DNA of 64,000 nt from Verrucomicrobiota bacterium (GTDB taxonomy: Bacteria; Verrucomicrobiota; Verrucomicrobiia; Limisphaerales; VHDF01), in assembly GCA_016871495.1 (NCBI GenBank), contig VHDF01000021.1:1-64000 (forward strand). Direction: 5' to 3'. The stretch's first letter is position 1. Every line of letters starts with the position of its first letter. The notes below the pieces were generated by a model. That model was not told the DNA's origin. It saw only the letters and a program-made list of their open reading frames with translations, and ran no database searches. This document shows positions 1,808 to 29,607 of the stretch, in pieces. Both the position numbers and the translations under genes were made by a program.

Positions 1808-2019
1808 GCTGGAGGTTGTCGGTGACCGTGTTGTCTTGGTAACGCAGACAGCCTTGTCTGCTGTTTCGCAGGCTGCCCAGCCTGCGGGGCGACGAAGGGA
1901 ACCCAGCGCGTGGAGTGCATGGAAGGGCGTCGTTCTTCACCCGCCGGGCCGACGGGCCGTCGGCGATACGGCAGGCTGGGCAGCCTGCGCCACACGACAG
2001 ACAACTTCGGCATGCGCGG
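1808..2019. mobile_element. MITE-like palindromic element, family 1, copy a
   Basis: About 210 bp. It shares its interior (GGCTGCCCAGCCTGC palindromes, a GGGCCGACGGGCCGTCGGC core) with copies at 5456-5632, 10612-10830 and 14826-15044. The right end (GACAACTTCGG.ATGC) is the inverted terminal repeat; the left end is eroded where it joins the family 2 repeat. Frames through it encode arginine/proline-rich peptides that recur in each copy and are not credible proteins. Confidence 0.75.
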
Positions 2020-5455: not shown

Positions 5456-5632
5456 CCGTGCATCGCGAAGTGGTCTGTCGTGTGGCGCAGGCTGCCCAGC
5501 CTGCCGTATCGCGGACGGCCCGTCGGCCCGGCGGGTGAAGAACGAGGCCCTTCCATGTTCTCCACCCGCCTGGTTTCCTTCGTCGCCCCGCAGGCTGGGC
5601 AGCCTGCGATACAGCAGACAGGGCTGTCGCGG
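5456..5632. mobile_element. MITE-like palindromic element, family 1, copy b (one end lost)
   Basis: Starts with the terminal repeat (CCGTGCATCGCGAAG) and shares the ~170-bp interior of copies at 1808, 10612 and 14826, in the same orientation as the 10612 copy. The right terminal repeat is missing: similarity stops near 5630 and runs into other repeat sequence. Confidence 0.75.
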
Positions 5633-5689
5633 TGTATTTTATTTTCAGACGCGGTTCGCCAGGGCGAATGGGTCACGGAATGGGAGATG

Positions 5690-10611: not shown

Positions 10612-10830
10612 CTGTGCATCCTGAAGTTGTCTGTCGTGTGGCGCAGGCATCCCAGCCTGCCGTATCGCCGACGGCCCGTCGGCCCGGCGGGTGAAGAACG
10701 AGGCCCTTCCATGCTCTCCACGCGCCTGGTTTCCTTCGTCGCCCCGCAGGCTGGGCAGCCTGCGATACAGCAGACAGGGCTGTCTGCGTTACCACGACAA
10801 CCCGGTCGCCGACAACTTCTGGATGCCCCG
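10612..10830. mobile_element. MITE-like palindromic element, family 1, copy c
   Basis: Left end CTGTGCATCCTGAAGTTGTC and right end GACAACTTCTGGATGCCCCG form imperfect terminal inverted repeats. The interior matches copies at 1808, 5456 and 14826. No clear flanking duplication was seen. Confidence 0.8.
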
Positions 10831-14756: not shown

Positions 14757-14825
14757 GGCTGCCGCCCCGGGAAATGAGAACGCGCTCCTGATGTGGATCC
14801 GTGGACGTGCTTGTTGAGTGAGGGC

Positions 14826-15044
14826 TGGTGCATCCAGAGGTTGTCGGTGACCGGGTTGTCGTGGTAACGCAGACAGCCCTGCCTGCTGTTTCGAAGGCTG
14901 CCCAGCCTGCGGGGCGACGAAGGGAACCAGGCGCGTGGAGAGCATGGAAGGGCCTCGTTCTCCACCCGCCGGGCCGACGGGCCGTCGGCGATACGGCAGG
15001 CTGGGCAGCCTGCGCCACACGACAGACAACTTCGGGATGCACGG
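14826..15044. mobile_element. MITE-like palindromic element, family 1, copy d, with 8/9 target duplication
   Basis: Terminal inverted repeats TGGTGCATCCAGAGGTTGTC and GACAACTTCGGGATGCACGG. It is flanked by AGTGAGGGC (14817-14825) and GGTGAGGGC (15045-15053), which match at 8 of 9 positions. It lies between the start of the FG-GAP gene and the divergent secreted-protein gene at 15117, so it must influence both upstream regions. Confidence 0.85.
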
Positions 15045-15116
15045 GGTGAGGGCCATGACCGCATCTGTTTATTGACACACTGGGATCCGCTTGAATATTA
15101 AAGGCCGCGAATCCCA

Positions 15117-17024
15117 ATGAAAAACCTTTTTGCCGCCTCTCTGGGCCTTGCTTTGGCTTTTCTGCCAGGCAAAGCGTATTCACAGGAGTTTGACATCACG
15201 ACCTTCGATCCCACTTCGGCGGGACGATGGTCGGAACTTGGTCGAACGACACTGATGGTTCCGAAGGTCCCCAACGGATCCATCAAACTCGATAACGCGG
15301 TGACCTCCGGCGAGTACGGCGGTTTCACCGGGGTCCCCGTCACGCCCGGCGTCAATGCCTGGATCCTGGATTTTCCCGGTGACCGTGTCTGGACCAACCC
15401 TGCCGATTCCAGCTTCACGTTTTACCTCGCCCACGACGATGATTTCTTCTACGTCGGAATCCAGGCCAAAGATGACGTGATCAACAGCGACAATCCCAAT
15501 ACAGCGTTTTGGAACGACGACGCCATTGAGATCGTGGTGGACGCGTTGAACGACCGGTTCGACAATAACACCGACAGCTCCAAGGATCCCGTCGGAGGAC
15601 ATAATTACGTCAATTACCAGGGCCGATTTTCGGCCTGGAACGAAGCCACCAACGAGAAGGCCAGTGAAACTTGGGCCAGCGCGGTGCCGTGGAAATACGG
15701 GCCGAACGACGATGTCTTCGGCGTCGGCAAGGCCGTGACCGGTGGTTGGGACATGGAGGTGCGTTTCAAGAAGCGCATGTTCGAGGATGCCACCGCCAAG
15801 AACAAACTGGTGAACGGCTACACCATGGGCTTCAACATCGGCATGGACGATGACGACAAGCAAGGTCAAGGGACCAATGGCGACAAGTCGCGCTCCCAGG
15901 ATTTGGAACTGCAATACTTTTGGGCCAACCGCCAGCGTGTCAAAGGCTACAACGCGGAATATCTGGCCTCGCTCACGCCGGAAGATAAAGCCGCCCAAGT
16001 CTGGCGGGCCGATGCCGAGAATTTTCCTCTCACGATCGACAGCGCCGGGCGCCTGTCGCACGGCGGAACGGGTGAAATCATCTTTGGATTCGACGCTGAC
16101 AAGCGGTCCAGCGGCAAGGTTCTCTTTATTTGCTCCAACTCGGATTCGCCGATCAACGCGGATGGAGCGTTGATCGCGTTGTTGCGCGCCAAAGGCTACA
16201 CGGTCACGCTGTACGAGTCGGGCGGCCAACCGGACGCCTTGCGCCAGGCCGCGGCCGGCCAGGACGTCGTTTTGATTTCCGAAAGCATTGGTTCGGGCAC
16301 CGTCCTTGAGCCCATTGGGGATCCCCCCGTGCAGAAGTTTATCCTACGCGACACCGACATTCCCGTCATTTCCTACGAGGCGTTCATGTGGGATAACGCG
16401 GAGTGGGTGGAGCACCCGGACGGGTTTGCGAACGAATTCTCCTTCTTCGGCAACACGGGCCGCACCGAGGATACCCAGCCGGCCGAACTGAAGGACCCGG
16501 CGGATTCCGTTCACATTCGCAGCGCCAGCCATCCCATTGCCGGCGGTCTGACGGGCAAGGTCAAGGTGTTCAACACCCCCTACAGCCTCAATTACGGACG
16601 GCCCTCGGCGGATGCCGACGTCGTGGCCAGCAGCCTGGCCAACGGAACCTATCCGACCCTCTTCGTTTATGAGAAGGGTGACAAACTCGTGGACGGCAGC
16701 GTGGCACCCAACAAGCGCATCGGATTGTTTTTGGGACAGGCAGCCAGCTTGACTGCGAACTGGGGCCCTGAATTGCGTTATCTCACGGAAGCAGGAAAAA
16801 CCCTGATCTTGAATTCCGTCGATTACGCCGTTGGGAAGAAGGAGCAGCCCAAGCCGACGCTCTCCCTTGCTCGCGATGGGAAGGACGTGGTGCTGACCTA
16901 TGCGGGAGGCACCCTGCAAAGCGCAGGAGCCGTGGACGGCCCCTGGACCAATGAAACCGGCCCGAGCCCGTTGAAGGTTTCAGCAGCCGCGGGCGCGAAG
17001 TTCTACCGCGTCCGGGGCAACTGA
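15117..17024 (+). CDS. Secreted CBM9-like/ThuA-like protein with shared C-terminal domain
   Basis: 635 residues with signal peptide MKNLFAASLGLALAFLPGKAYS. Residues about 45-300 resemble a CBM9/DOMON-type sugar-binding sandwich (FTFYLAHDDDFFYVGIQAKDD, FWNDDAIEIVVD). Residues about 335-570 look like a ThuA/glutamine-amidotransferase-like Rossmann region (KVLFICSNSD, LLRAKGYTVTLYES, DVVLISESIGSG), but no catalytic Cys triad was identified. The C-terminal ~55 residues (LQSAGAVDGPW...KFYRVRGN) match the end of the 937-residue protein. An extracellular carbohydrate-related role is inferred. A strong terminator follows. Confidence 0.75.
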   Translation: MKNLFAASLGLALAFLPGKAYSQEFDITTFDPTSAGRWSELGRTTLMVPKVPNGSIKLDNAVTSGEYGGFTGVPVTPGVNAWILDFPGDRVWTNPADSSFTFYLAHDDDFFYVGIQAKDDVINSDNPNTAFWNDDAIEIVVDALNDRFDNNTDSSKDPVGGHNYVNYQGRFSAWNEATNEKASETWASAVPWKYGPNDDVFGVGKAVTGGWDMEVRFKKRMFEDATAKNKLVNGYTMGFNIGMDDDDKQGQGTNGDKSRSQDLELQYFWANRQRVKGYNAEYLASLTPEDKAAQVWRADAENFPLTIDSAGRLSHGGTGEIIFGFDADKRSSGKVLFICSNSDSPINADGALIALLRAKGYTVTLYESGGQPDALRQAAAGQDVVLISESIGSGTVLEPIGDPPVQKFILRDTDIPVISYEAFMWDNAEWVEHPDGFANEFSFFGNTGRTEDTQPAELKDPADSVHIRSASHPIAGGLTGKVKVFNTPYSLNYGRPSADADVVASSLANGTYPTLFVYEKGDKLVDGSVAPNKRIGLFLGQAASLTANWGPELRYLTEAGKTLILNSVDYAVGKKEQPKPTLSLARDGKDVVLTYAGGTLQSAGAVDGPWTNETGPSPLKVSAAAGAKFYRVRGN

Positions 17025-18133: not shown

Positions 18134-18276
18134 GCAAGCTCGCAAACAGCAGTTCTCATTTTGCCTGGAACAAGGTGGGGCGCGCACTCCGCTGCGCGCC
18201 GAGACCGGCTGTTTCCAAGAGCGGCGCGCAGCGGAGTGCTGCGCCCTACCCGTCAAATGAGAATTGCAAGCTCGCA
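18134..18276. mobile_element. Hairpin element flanked by 11-bp direct repeats
   Basis: GCAAGCTCGCA occurs at 18134-18144 and again at 18266-18276. Inside it, arms AGTTCTCATTTTG / CAAATGAGAATT and GCGCGCACTCCGCTGCGCGCC / GGCGCGCAGCGGAGTGCTGC fold into a long hairpin. The outer direct repeats resemble a target-site duplication. No coding capacity. Confidence 0.6.
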
Positions 18277-18296: not shown

Positions 18297-18526
18297 CAGT
18301 GCATCCATAGGTTGTCGGTGATGCGCGCCCCACCGCCGGACCGCGCCGTTCACGGTGCTTCAGACCACGCCAACCCGATCGCGCCGAGTCTCGCCAACCG
18401 CGCAGCCTGCCAACGGTGCATTCGGCCCCTTGCGCCAAACCAGCCGCCTCGAACGCGCCATGCCCGCTTTCATCCACACCTTGATGCGGCGTAAACGCCG
18501 CGCTCCGACAACTTGCGGATACACCG
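18297..18526. mobile_element. MITE-like palindromic element, family 1, copy e
   Basis: Left end CAGTGCATCCATAGGTTGTC and right end GACAACTTGCGGATACACCG are terminal inverted repeats. Flanks TCCGACGCC (18288-18296) and TCCGGCGCG (18527-18535) match at 7 of 9. The interior differs from copies a-d (it starts GGTGATGCGCGCC) but resembles the copy at 20693-20922. Confidence 0.75.
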
Positions 18527-20692: not shown

Positions 20693-20922
20693 CCGTGCAT
20701 CCCGATGTTGTTGGTGATGCGCGCCGCAGTGCCGGGGCGCGGCGTTCACGCCGCCTCAGGGCCTGTCGTCAAAGGGGCAGGACAGTTTCAACGGGCAGGG
20801 GTGCCGCCAGGGCGAAGGCATTCACCCAGGGCGGGCCATGGATCGGGAGGAGATCGCCGCGGTCGATGGGCGCGAGCGGAAGCGCCGTGAGCGGCGCGCC
20901 CCGACACCTTGCGGTTGCACCG
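20693..20922. mobile_element. MITE-like palindromic element, family 1, copy f
   Basis: Left end CCGTGCATCCCGATGTTGTT; right end CGACACCTTGCGGTTGCACC. The interior resembles copy e (GGTGATGCGCGCC ... GGCGCGCCCCGACA). Flanks match only 5 of 9, so the target duplication is not clear here. Confidence 0.7.
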
Positions 20923-24355: not shown

Positions 24356-24416
24356 CACCGCATCGTGGGAGATGCCCGGGCGCGTTTCAAGGTTCAACCT
24401 TGAGGCAAGTATTGTG

Positions 24417-24550
24417 CCGTGTATCCCGATGTTGTTGGTAGGGCGGGCCTGTCCCAGCCCGCCGCCCACGGGATGCGAAACATCATGCTCCGGCGGCGCG
24501 CCGGGACGGACGCGCCCTACCTGCATCACCGGCAACATCGGGATGCACCG
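24417..24550. mobile_element. MITE-like palindromic element, family 1, short copy g
   Basis: 134 bp with terminal inverted repeats CCGTGTATCCCGATGTTGTT and CGGCAACATCGGGATGCACC. Flanks AGTATTGTG (24408-24416) and AGTAATCTG (24551-24559) match 7 of 9. The interior (GGGCGGGCCTGTCCCAGCCC ... CGCGCCGGGACGGACGCGCC) is nearly identical to copy h. Confidence 0.85.
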
Positions 24551-24611
24551 AGTAATCTGCTTCGAGCGCTTGCCGGATTTCCTGGAGGAGGCATGATGAT
24601 CGGACTTGCCG

Positions 24612-25943
24612 ATGCGTTCTCAACGTTCGTCAACAAGGTCCAAGCTCATGTTCCTCACCGGGACGGTGGTGCTGCTTGCCCTGATCGCATGGATGATCAC
24701 CATGCAGGATCCGGCGTGGATTGCGGGAGAGGGATCGATTGAGCCAGGAATCCCCCGCGTTCCGCCAACACGACTCACCTCCTCCAACGCGCCTCCCCCA
24801 GGCCCGAGTGCGGGTCCGATCGCTTCCCCACAGACGAATGCGGCGGCAACTTCCCAAGTGCAGGTGGGACTTCATCCCATTGATCCATCTCGGAGTCCTT
24901 CTCCTCCGGCACGGACCCCGCTGGAGAAGACCTCCGAGGTTCTGCCTTCATTCCAAGCCGACCCGCGATTTGTTTTGACGAATGCGGCCATCCCCGGAAC
25001 GTCCGCCGCCACTCTCGGGAACCTTTCCGCCTCTTCCAACCTGTCATGGCGTCCGTCGGTGTCGTCTTTGCTGTCCACCGGCTTTCCTCGACCGGCGGCC
25101 AGCCCGTTCGAAATCCAGGTGGCGTTGGCCCGCCTCGGGTTTTCGCCCGGGTCCATCGATGGAGTGTGGGGGGGCCAGACCCGCGCCGCGCTGATCGCGT
25201 GGCAATCCCGGGAAGGAATTCCCCCGACCGGGCAGATGGATGCGGCCACGCGCGCTCGTTTGACGTTGAGCCATGCCGTGGAGGAACTCTACACGATTTC
25301 GTCCAACGACCTTGCGGATCTGCAACCCACAAGCCCCACTTGGCTGGGGAAATCTCAGCAAACTTCGCTGGGTTATGAAACGATCCTGGAATCGCTGGCC
25401 GAACGCCGGCTTGCGAGTCCCGCCCTGCTGCAGCGGATGAATCCAGGAACCGACTGGGCTCAGTTGACTTTGGGCGGCGTTGTGGCTTTGCCAAGCGTCG
25501 CGATTCCCGCGGCAACCCTTCCCGCAGTCTCGATCCGCATTCGACTTGGATCGAGATCGCTGGCGGCCTTTGACGCTTCGGAGCGTTTGATCGCCCACTA
25601 TCCGTGCAGCATCGCCCGAAAGGTGGAGAAGCGTCCGCTGGGCCGCCTGTACGTGCTCAACATCGCGGTTCCTCCTAACTACACCTTCGACCCGGAAAAC
25701 TTTCCCGAGTCGGCGGAGGCGCGCGCCTTGGGACGGAAGCTGACCCTCCCGCCCGGCCCCAACAATCCCGTCGGCACGGCCTGGATTGGATTGGACCGTC
25801 CCGGCTACGGCATTCATGGCACGCCCCGGCCGGAGGAAGTGGGTCGAACGGAAAGTCACGGATGCTTCCGGCTGGCGAATTGGAATGCCGAGCATCTGGC
25901 AAGGCTGGTGCGGTCGGGAATTCCGGTGGAGGTGGAGCCTTGA
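24612..25943 (+). CDS. L,D-transpeptidase (YkuD) with peptidoglycan-binding domain
   Basis: About 443 residues. The N-terminal membrane anchor (LMFLTGTVVLLALIAWMIT) is followed by a long Ser/Pro-rich linker, a PG_binding_1 domain near 170-215 (VALARLGFSPGSIDGVWGGQTRAALIAWQ type), a LysM-like segment, and a YkuD domain at the end with YGIHGTP and the catalytic SHGCFRL (Cys about 418). It would form L,D cross-links or attach proteins to peptidoglycan in the periplasm. ATG at 24612 chosen; TTG at 24606 is an alternative. Its stop overlaps the TTG of the next gene. Confidence 0.9.
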   Translation: MRSQRSSTRSKLMFLTGTVVLLALIAWMITMQDPAWIAGEGSIEPGIPRVPPTRLTSSNAPPPGPSAGPIASPQTNAAATSQVQVGLHPIDPSRSPSPPARTPLEKTSEVLPSFQADPRFVLTNAAIPGTSAATLGNLSASSNLSWRPSVSSLLSTGFPRPAASPFEIQVALARLGFSPGSIDGVWGGQTRAALIAWQSREGIPPTGQMDAATRARLTLSHAVEELYTISSNDLADLQPTSPTWLGKSQQTSLGYETILESLAERRLASPALLQRMNPGTDWAQLTLGGVVALPSVAIPAATLPAVSIRIRLGSRSLAAFDASERLIAHYPCSIARKVEKRPLGRLYVLNIAVPPNYTFDPENFPESAEARALGRKLTLPPGPNNPVGTAWIGLDRPGYGIHGTPRPEEVGRTESHGCFRLANWNAEHLARLVRSGIPVEVEP

Positions 25944-26488
25944 GTTCGAAGTTTGCGTTTCGGCTTTTGAGTGAGGATTCCCGCCGCCCGCTCCCCTCGA
26001 AGATCATCATCGGCGAGCACGAGACCGAGACCGCCGTTCACGTCGTCTTGAAGGCCCTGGCCTATCTTTTTTTCTACAGGGATCGAATTCAGGTTGAAAC
26101 TGACTTGCACCTGGATTCGGTTCCATTCGTGCCGGATCTGGCGCAATTGGACTACACGATGCGACCCGCTTTGTGGGTCGAATGTGGCGAATGCAGTGTG
26201 GCCAAGTTGAACAAACTGGCGACGAAACTGCCCGAAGCCGAGATCTGGGTTGTGAGGCCATCGAGAGCCGACGGAGATCAGTTGCTTCTCGCCATGAAAC
26301 GAGCGGAGTTGCGGCAGGGCCGTTACCACGTGCTGGCCCTGGAGACGGAAGGTTTCAACGAAATCCTCGGCCTGCTCCAACCCCGCAACGAGGTGCGTTG
26401 GTATCGCCTGCAAATGGACCCGCCGGTCATGCAGTTTGATTTCAACGGGCTTTGGTTTGAACTGCCGTTCGACATCCTCGAATGGTGA
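25940..26488 (+). CDS. YaeQ-like protein
   Basis: 182 residues from a TTG that overlaps the upstream stop (TTGA) and is preceded by a strong GGAGGTGGAG site, which decides the start. The sequence (IIIGEHETETAVHVVLKALAYLFF, RPALWVECGECSVAKLNKLATK, EIWVVRPSR) resembles YaeQ-family proteins, which have a PD-(D/E)xK nuclease-like fold; the E...WVE.G core is present. Function unknown. Coupling to the L,D-transpeptidase is tight but its meaning is unclear. Confidence 0.7.
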   Translation: MSSKFAFRLLSEDSRRPLPSKIIIGEHETETAVHVVLKALAYLFFYRDRIQVETDLHLDSVPFVPDLAQLDYTMRPALWVECGECSVAKLNKLATKLPEAEIWVVRPSRADGDQLLLAMKRAELRQGRYHVLALETEGFNEILGLLQPRNEVRWYRLQMDPPVMQFDFNGLWFELPFDILEW

Positions 26489-26520
26489 ATTCACGCGACC
26501 CCAGGCCCCAATGGCTTCTC

Positions 26521-26654
26521 CCGTGTATCCCGATGTTGTTGGTAGGGCGGGCCTGTCCCAGCCCGCCGCCCACTGGATGCAAAACATCACGCTCCGGCGG
26601 CGCGCCGGGACGGACGCGCCCTACCGGCATCACCGGCAACATCGGGAGGCACCG
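26521..26654. mobile_element. MITE-like palindromic element, family 1, short copy h, perfect 9-bp target duplication
   Basis: 134 bp. Terminal inverted repeats CCGTGTATCCCGATGTTGTT / CGGCAACATCGGGAGGCACC. Perfect flanking direct repeats TGGCTTCTC at 26512-26520 and 26655-26663. This is the clearest evidence in the window that the family moves by transposition. Confidence 0.9.
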
Positions 26655-26715
26655 TGGCTTCTCTCCAGTCAGAGAAGCCGCTTGCAAAAGTGGATTCGAT
26701 TTTTAGTTTCCACGC

Positions 26716-29607
26716 ATGCCGCAAGCATTAACTCCGCAGCCCCACCCGCCGCAACCTCTCTCGAGCGCGGAATTTGTGTTCCGCCACATCGGACCACGGC
26801 CCGACGAAATCCATGCCATGCTGGGAACTCTGGGGCTGGCGTCCTTGGACGCCTTGACCCGGGCCACGGTTCCCGCGGATATCCGGCTCGATCGTCCGCT
26901 GCACTTGCCTGCCCCTTGCACCGAAGCCGAGGCGCTGAGGCGGCTGCGGGCACTGGCGGATTCGAATCGAGTCCATCGCTCCTTTATGGGCATGGGCTAT
27001 TCCGAATGTCTCACCCCTTCCGTGATCCAGAGAAACATTTTGGAGAATCCGGGGTGGTACACCCAATACACGCCCTATCAAGCCGAGATTTCGCAAGGGC
27101 GGCTGGAAGGGTTGCTCAACTTCCAAACCCTGGTGGCCGAGCTCACCGGGTTGGATGTCGCCAACGCTTCCATGCTCGACGAGTCCACCGCGGCCGCCGA
27201 AGCCATGATGATGTTCCACCGGCTGAAGCAGGGCGAGGGCCGAAACTGTTTCCTGATCGCCGACGACTGTCATCCGCAGACCATCGAAGTGGTGCAGACC
27301 CGCGCCCGCGCGCTGGGCATTGAAACCCGCGTCGAGGCCACCGGCGCCATGCCCTTCGGTCCGGACGTTTTCGGGGTCCTCTTGCAATACCCCAACACGT
27401 ACGGCGCGATTCACGATTATGCCCCGCTGGCTCAACATGCTCACTTGAGCGGCGCCTTGGTGGCCGTCGCGGCCGACCTGCTTGCCCTCGCGATCCTCAA
27501 GCCTCCGGGCGAATTCGGAGCGGATGCCGCCATCGGCAGCGCCCAACGATTCGGCGTTCCGCTGAGTTTTGGCGGGCCCCATGCCGCGTTCTTTGCCACG
27601 CGAGACACGTTCAAGCGCCAGTTGCCCGGACGCTTGGTGGGTGTTTCCAAAGACTCCCGGGGCAAACCCGCGCTGCGTCTCTCGCTGGGCACCCGCGAAC
27701 AGCATATCCGCCGCGAGAAGGCCACGAGCAACATCTGCACGGCCCAAGCCTTGCTCGCCAACATGGCCTCCGCCTACGCGGTGTATCACGGTCCGGAAGG
27801 CTTGCGCGGCATCGCCCTTGAATTGCGCTCGCTGGCGCAAGCCCTCGCCGAGGGCGCTCGTCAACTCGGCCTGCGAGTCGAAGGTTGTCCACGATTCGAC
27901 ACCGTGAGGATCGAGCATCCGGATGCGGCGGCGGTGCTGCGACGCGCGGCTGACGCCCAATGCAATCTCCGGCTCATCCACACTGGCTCGCTTGGAATCA
28001 GTTTGGGCGAAGGGACGACCCCGTCCGATCTGGAAACGTTGCTGGGTGTCCTCCACGGAGAGTCCCGGCTTCCTTTTCAAATTCAGGAACTCGTCAAGAG
28101 AGCGCGGTCGGAGAATCCCTGGCCCGAGTCCCTGGTCCGGCAGTCCCCGTTCCTCACGCACCCTGTTTTTCATCGGCACCGTTCGGAGACCGAGATGCTT
28201 CGCTATTTGAAACGCCTTGAGGCCCGTGATTTGTCGATGACCACTTCGATGATCCCACTGGGTTCATGCACGATGAAGCTGAACGCCACGACCGAAATGA
28301 TGCCGGTCACATGGCCGGGCTTCTCCCAGCTTCATCCCTTTGCTCCCGCGGACCAGACCCGGGGTTACCGAGAGCTTTTTGAAAATCTGAGCGCCTGGCT
28401 GTCCGAGATTACCGGGTTTCCCGCCATTTCTTTGCAACCCAACGCCGGATCGCAAGGCGAATATGCCGGACTGCTGGCGGTTCGGGAATGGCATCGAAAC
28501 CGGGGGGAACCGCATCGCACCGTGTGTTTGATTCCGCTCTCGGCCCACGGGACAAACCCGGCAAGCGCGGTCATGGCCGGTTTTCGCGTGGTGCCGGTGG
28601 CTTGTGACGTGCAGGGCAACATCGACCTGCTCGACCTTCGCGCCAAGGCGGGCCAGCACGCCGCACAACTCGGTGCGATCATGGTGACGTATCCCTCCAC
28701 CCATGGAGTTTTCGAAACCACCATGCGCGAGCTCTGTGAGATCGTCCACCAGCACGGTGGCCAGGTTTATCTCGATGGGGCCAACCTGAACGCCCAGGTG
28801 GGGTTGTGCCGGCCGGCGGACATGGGCGCCGACGTTTGCCATCTGAATTTGCACAAGACCTTTTGTATTCCGCACGGTGGGGGCGGACCCGGCATGGGGC
28901 CGATCGGAGTGGCCCGTCATCTGGCTCCTTTCTTGCCCGGCCACACCGTGGTGGCCCCGGACGAGATGGCGCGGGGCGGCGCGGTCTCGGCGGCTCCTTG
29001 GGGCAGCGCCAGTCTGTTGCCGATCTCCTGGTCTTACATCGCCATGATGGGTGCGGAGGGGCTTCGGCAAGCCACCCAGGTTGCCATCCTCAACGCCAAC
29101 TACATCGCCCATCGCCTCAAGGATCATTTCCCGGTGCTGTATGCCGGGCCGGGAGGCTGGGTGGCTCACGAGTGCATTCTCGATCTGCGTCCCTTCAAGA
29201 GCGTGACGGTCGAGGACGTCGCCAAGCGGTTGATGGATTACGGCTTTCATGCGCCAACCATCTCCTGGCCTGTCGCCGGGACCATGATGATTGAGCCGAC
29301 GGAAAGTGAGCCGAGAGAGGAACTTGACCGTTTCTGCGATTCCCTCATCGCGATTCGCGCGGAAATTGAGGAGATCGAAACCGGGAAGTCGGATCCCGCT
29401 GATAATGTGTTGAAGAACGCCCCCCACACCGCGGACATGATCGCCGCGGAAACGTGGAATCATCCGTATTCGCGCATGCGAGCCGCGTATCCGAAGCCTT
29501 GGCTGCTCGAATTCAAATACTGGCCGCCCGTGGGGCGGGTGGACAACGTCTTTGGCGATCGCAACCTCGTTTGCACCTGCGCCGGCATGGAAGCCTACGG
29601 CGCCTGA
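26716..29607 (+). CDS. gcvP: Glycine dehydrogenase (decarboxylating), P-protein of glycine cleavage
   Basis: 963 residues, the normal full length for the single-chain P-protein, which decarboxylates glycine and passes the aminomethyl group to lipoyl-GcvH. Landmarks are FRHIGPR near the start, [15 protein letters not shown], the C-terminal-half [13 protein letters not shown], the PLP lysine about 714 in [19 protein letters not shown], and [15 protein letters not shown]. No gcvT, gcvH or lpd is in the window. It starts 61 bp after a family 1 element; its stop at 29607 directly abuts the convergent prepilin-like gene. Confidence 0.97.

Follow-up and report, generated by a model that had tools for sequence, protein, structure and literature searches.

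A MITE family inserted at a fixed distance from predicted promoters in a Verrucomicrobiota genome, and its probable DruA- and transposase-bearing partner elements

Repeat elements in the window and across the genome

The window, a 64-kb stretch (positions 1 to 64,000) of contig VHDF01000021.1 (C21) of the Verrucomicrobiota bacterium assembly GCA_016871495.1 (5.055 Mb, 201 contigs, 97% complete), contains short repeats with common inverted ends, identified here as miniature inverted-repeat transposable elements (MITEs). An initial annotation, made from the letters of the window, had reported eight copies with three types of interior, and ends were recovered at all eight places, although the left end of the 1808 copy is degenerate and the right end of the 5456 copy is lost. 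With up to 3 mismatches, nine end matches were found in the window vs none in 100 shuffles, and a position-weight matrix gave clean end pairs for six of the eight elements (10612, 14826, 18297, 20693, 24417, and 26521).

Type B comprises the first four elements. That at 1808..2019 (minus strand) has a right end, CCGCGCATGCCGAAGTTGTC, with 2 mismatches and an interior that matches other B copies, with no recognizable duplication; that at 5456..5660 (plus strand, end approximate) retains its left end; and that at 10612..10830 (plus strand, 219 bp) has a decayed duplication. The fourth (14826..15044, plus strand, 219 bp) has paired ends and lies between the 9-mers AGTGAGGGC (14817..14825) and GGTGAGGGC (15045..15053), which agree at 8/9 positions; a perfect -35 box, TTGACA, is located on the plus strand at 15072..15077, exactly 27 nt past the element end, with ATATTA 17 nt further on and an open reading frame (ORF) downstream at 15117. 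The two type C elements, each 230 bp and on the plus strand, are at 18297..18526, with a 7/9 duplication (TCCGACGCC/TCCGGCGCG) and, to its left, TTGCAA on the minus strand at offset 27 (18264-18269), and at 20693..20922, without a clear duplication. Both type A elements are 134 bp long and on the plus strand: one (24417..24550; 99% to the family consensus) is flanked by AGTATTGTG (24408..24416) and AGTAATCTG (24551..24559), a 7/9 duplication, and the other (26521..26654), with paired ends, is flanked by a 9/9 duplication of TGGCTTCTC (26512..26520 and 26655..26663), with a -35-like box, TTGCAA, at offset 27 (26682..26687, plus strand) upstream of a 963-aa ORF at 26716. The four 9-mer pairs quoted in the initial annotation proved exact.

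Genome-wide, the end pattern YSGTGYATCCNNADGTTGTYGGTG with up to 2 mismatches had 512 matches (264+248), compared with none (0+0) for the reversed pattern used as a control. Element analysis drew on 1.64 Mb of the genome; in 1.12 Mb of this (contigs C1-C12, picked regardless of copies) there are 73 paired elements, which scales to ~330 per genome. Type A elements are 134 bp, type B ~219 bp, and type C ~230 bp, and there are also 77-bp forms; as expected of MITEs, the elements are short (77-260 bp), non-coding, and bounded by 23-26-bp inverted ends. Type A represents a recent burst, since its copies show a mean of 1.8 differences from their own consensus and 18/69 are identical to it, whereas types B and C are older.

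Tabulation of the flanks of the first 30 type A copies gave an identity of 0.88 at 9 bp and of 0.22-0.33, the control level, at 4-8 and 10-12 bp, with a perfect 9-bp duplication in 22/30; in the final set of 71 paired A copies the duplication is 9/9 in 56 and 8/9 in 7, and among non-A elements it reaches at least 7/9 in 31/54. The target duplication is therefore of one fixed length, 9 bp only. When the flanks of A copies were joined and uninterrupted versions were searched for, paralogous empty sites were found for five A copies, as expected of mobile elements; such sites exist because A copies interrupt B copies or other repeats whose intact versions span the junction. At C29:2554, an A copy lies within a B element, and tens of uninterrupted B copies span the junction, mostly at 85-94% identity. 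Duplications far above chance and paralogous empty sites uphold the initial proposal that the repeats are MITEs duplicating 9 bp of target; the refuting condition set in the initial annotation thus fails.

The element interiors have a pronounced palindromic structure (fold z -6.4, -7.8, and -2.6). The type C palindrome, GCGGCGT(G/T)(A/T)ACGCCGC, also occurs alone in the same genome, without element ends (e.g., C4:96117 and C7:61658), and could be either an independent repeat resembling repetitive extragenic palindromes (REPs) or a captured one. Two type B elements (C4:9263-9607 and C20:5492-5837) contain a common inner insert of ~125 bp (CCTATTTCATGCACGGGACGCCCGGTGAGGACACC...), perhaps another mobile repeat, and similar text is found to the left of the 1808 copy in the window.

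Spacing between insertions and -35 boxes

A search of the insertion flanks for TTGACA at offsets 0-71 from the element end gave a single sharp peak, with a TTGACA-like box beginning 27 nt from the element end and 18 nt past the duplicated 9-mer. Boxes matching at 4/6 or more positions are present at offset 27 in 44/68 type A insertions (4.5 on average and at most 11 at other offsets), those matching at 5/6 or more in 23/68 (maximum 2 at any other offset), and perfect TTGACA in 7/68 (0 at any other offset); in 20,000 trials with random offsets there were never more than 6 boxes at the 5/6 level, vs the 23 observed. A weak TAnnnT follows 17 nt beyond the box, as in sigma70 promoters. The same offset is favored by B and C elements (16/29, vs 5 at the next best) and by the elements of relatives, including a full-length one (7/14, vs 3 at the next best). 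Insertion obeys a fixed-distance promoter rule, with a spacing of 27 nt, and either end of an element can face the promoter (right in 26, left in 32). Since this rule fixes the distance to a promoter, insertions lie upstream of genes: only 5/65 are within ORFs, although ~84% of the sequence is coding, and 1/59 intergenic copies is between convergent genes.

A rule of this kind that returned to the same 9-mer would predict tandem elements with the -35 box on the side away from the neighbor. In 15 cases only one 9-mer separates an A copy from an adjoining element, and in these 15 pairs the box is away from the neighbor in 12 and on the neighbor's side in none. Since the promoter and its 9-mer outlast an insertion, the site stays open to a further one, and the pattern seen is of tandems with three common 9-mers and the newcomer beside the promoter. 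The initial annotation had mentioned neither the fixed promoter distance nor tandem re-insertion, nor the DruA/ISKra4-like identity of the partner element described below.

Full-length elements with the same ends in related genomes

End matches were identified in 52/245 genomes of the same order, with more than 100 in some; a stricter end pattern had no match elsewhere in the phylum (194 genomes). Two end pairs ~2.2 kb apart delimit elements of full length (2199 bp in L209, 2278 bp in L210) that have the same ends as the MITEs and encode, in two overlapping genes with nothing else between the ends, a DruA protein (PF14236; E 4e-23 and 2e-31, respectively) and a DDE transposase. The full-length element with these ends and a transposase that the initial annotation had proposed to look for is thus present in relatives of the order, but not in this assembly. 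In profile searches, the best families for the two transposases were ISKra4 (154 and 182 bits), then ISLre2 and ISH6, and the alignment with ISKra4 covers nearly the full profile length; by far the best family being ISKra4, the predicted partner transposase is ISKra4-like, but is not filed as ISKra4.

Further copies with these ends and DruA and/or transposase genes include L230-L236 and L319-L337, the latter mostly in metagenome bins labeled Verrucomicrobia, Pedosphaera, or Opitutae. Direct repeats of the 8-9 bp typical of ISKra4 flank a 2191-bp copy with the same ends (L333/L235; 9/9), an internal-deletion form of 976 bp (L335; 9/9), and a 2202-bp copy with diverged ends (L331; 8/9). The end motif follows soon after the stop codon of transposases at least 48% identical to transposase P0004, wherever the contig extends far enough, and was not found after transposases of 45% identity or less. 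At least two end matches occur in 15/15 genomes with a close transposase vs 18/230 others (Fisher 3e-15).

Because the repeats and these elements agree in their ends, in the length of the duplication, and in the target rule, we infer, with a probability of about 0.85, that the repeats are MITEs of this ~2.2-kb family of DruA and ISKra4-like elements, inserted by a promoter ruler with a 9-bp duplication. The full-length form would have inverted repeats of ~26 bp (consensus C[GC]GTGCATCCCGAAGTTGTCGGTGAT) that enclose genes for DruA and for a DDE transposase of the Mutator type, similar to that of ISKra4. Whereas the 9-bp duplication is directly observed, the identity of the enzyme is deduced from the three shared traits: it would recognize MITE ends in trans and insert them with that duplication, choosing targets with 18 nt between the end of the duplicated 9-mer and a sigma70 -35 box, as is seen in the flanks.

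Several observations weigh against this assignment. L209 and L210, the two copies with both genes open, lack a duplication, and the full-length copy with a 9/9 duplication has a frameshifted transposase gene. The L209 and L210 scores are under the NCBIfam cut-off for ISKra4 (205 bits). A search of the 97%-complete genome to which the window belongs gave no close transposase; whatever supplied the enzyme for the recent type A burst would have been lost from the strain or not assembled. About a third of A insertions have no -35-like box at offset 27, and the promoters at that offset are predicted from sequence. Candidates within the genome were discarded: an IS4-type transposase at C117 (L140) is without these ends, a weak ISKra4 profile match at C16:8413 is not a relative, and a 635-bp end pair at C9:56991, within which an ordinary gene begins, arose by chance.

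An improbable alternative is that the MITEs are moved by the genome's own DruA-Tn5/IS4 fusion transposase (L120, C15:2122-4716; 734 aa, with PF14236, PF14706, and DDE domains), which is set between MITE-type ends: the gene is bounded by recognizable type C ends, type C MITEs match both termini, and Tn5-type enzymes also make 9-bp duplications. However, relatives of the fusion (36-53% identity) are without MITE ends; the ends found in them are Tn5-like (CTCTGCACCTTACACGG in L290; CTGATCGTGTCCCACATC in L295, with a 9/9 duplication), and an inner inverted repeat of the same Tn5-like sort (CTCGACATTGCACACA/CTCAACATTACACACA) is present in the C15 copy itself. On these grounds we rejected the fusion as the autonomous parent and regard it as nested in a type C MITE.

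We consider it very unlikely that the spacing arose by selection after random insertion, whereby promoter-sparing copies would survive with no targeting. The depletion in coding and convergent regions would also follow from selection, but this is hard to square with single-base precision (23 strong boxes at offset 27, and 2 or fewer at any other), and tandem re-insertion at an identical 9-mer also requires active choice. To our knowledge, RAYT elements make no target duplications, whereas 9-bp duplications are near universal in this family. A reading of the repeats as REP/BIME-type palindromes that a RAYT (REP-associated tyrosine transposase) spread and that selection kept as terminators or mRNA hairpins can be all but dismissed: the interiors are strongly palindromic, a related palindrome (GCGGCGTGAACGCCGC) also stands alone outside the elements, and GTAG-type REPs are reported in the verrucomicrobium O. 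terrae (PMC3733652), but the ends are those of DDE elements, and copies avoid the space between convergent genes, the expected place for terminators (1/59).

The proposed kinship with ISKra4 can be set against what is described for that group, which belongs to the prokaryotic Mutator-like elements (p-MULT 4), and of which several members insert 13-17 bp upstream of the -35 boxes of sigma-A promoters (PMC3942029). The profile match of the transposase, the 8-9-bp duplications, and promoters on either side of the element are shared with ISKra4, and four of the described members have additional genes without a known function (PMC3942029), comparable to the carriage of DruA. Unlike ISKra4, the present elements score 154-182 bits (<205), carry DruA, and are accompanied by hundreds of MITEs per genome, and in type A, types B and C, and relatives alike the -35 box is at 27 nt rather than 13-17 bp. 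TnGBS/ISLre2 elements (p-MULT 3) likewise make 8-9-bp duplications and insert at a fixed 15-17 bp upstream of the -35 box (PMC3942029), but in an oriented manner, with the right end by the promoter, whereas here either end faces it; the two spacings are about one helical turn apart. As known ISKra4 and TnGBS elements use 13-17 bp, the 27-nt spacing is new. The elements resemble the bacterial MITEs NEMIS, RUP, ERIC, and Nezha in being 70-300 bp, non-coding, and trans-mobilized, with terminal inverted repeats and a structured interior (PMC3733652); they differ in ends and partner, and no single-base promoter ruler was found described for those families (PMC3733652).

DruA and transposition

DruA is otherwise a protein of the Druantia anti-phage defense system, and the first ORF of the full-length elements belongs to the same family (PF14236). 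Unlike in Druantia, DruA is here an element gene that overlaps the transposase gene, and neither the DruE helicase nor other dru genes lie beside it in L209 or L210; PADLOC DruA models gave a weak match (0.013) or none. Gene overlap and repeated association suggest a possible role for DruA in transposition. In the order, 23 of the 30 top-scoring PF14236 loci (L258-L287) lie next to a transposase or form a fusion with one, of the IS66 (16), ISKra4-like (4), ISL3 (1), or Tn5/IS4 fusion (2) type. The possibility that DruA dictates the end sequence was not supported, as DruA loci by IS66, ISL3, and Tn5-type transposases are without these ends. No link between DruA and transposons was found in the literature searched, although subscription papers and ISfinder records were outside the search and prior notice is possible.

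For DruA, AlphaFold (four sequences; mean pLDDT 62) predicts a helical N-terminal part resembling a helix-turn-helix; nearly all matches listed by Foldseek are GNAT acetyltransferases, none of them significant (best E 0.23), and serve as a lead only. In one complete, single-contig genome (G071), a first look gave 68 DruA candidates, several of them DruA-transposase fusions of 600-800 aa, which points to a large family of a fused element in one genome. DruA relatives (39% identity) also occur at three loci (L338-L340) in two IMG/VR viral contigs, two of them at opposite ends of one contig.

More speculatively, and with the balance of evidence still well short of favoring it, DruA may be a general accessory of DDE transposition, serving at least four families, which in these elements sets the 27-nt ruler, either itself or through contact with RNA polymerase or promoter DNA. 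If so, the DruA of Druantia would be a transposon gene recruited for defense. The association with transposition makes the biochemical role of this poorly understood defense protein testable, and since most PF14236 matches in this order belong to transposons and not to Druantia systems, annotating defense systems by this domain alone would mislead. The hundreds of insertions in one genome constitute a natural data set in which promoters are read with single-base precision and the same spot is re-used, at a spacing not described for known promoter-targeting families, and the elements mark promoters in an uncultured lineage.
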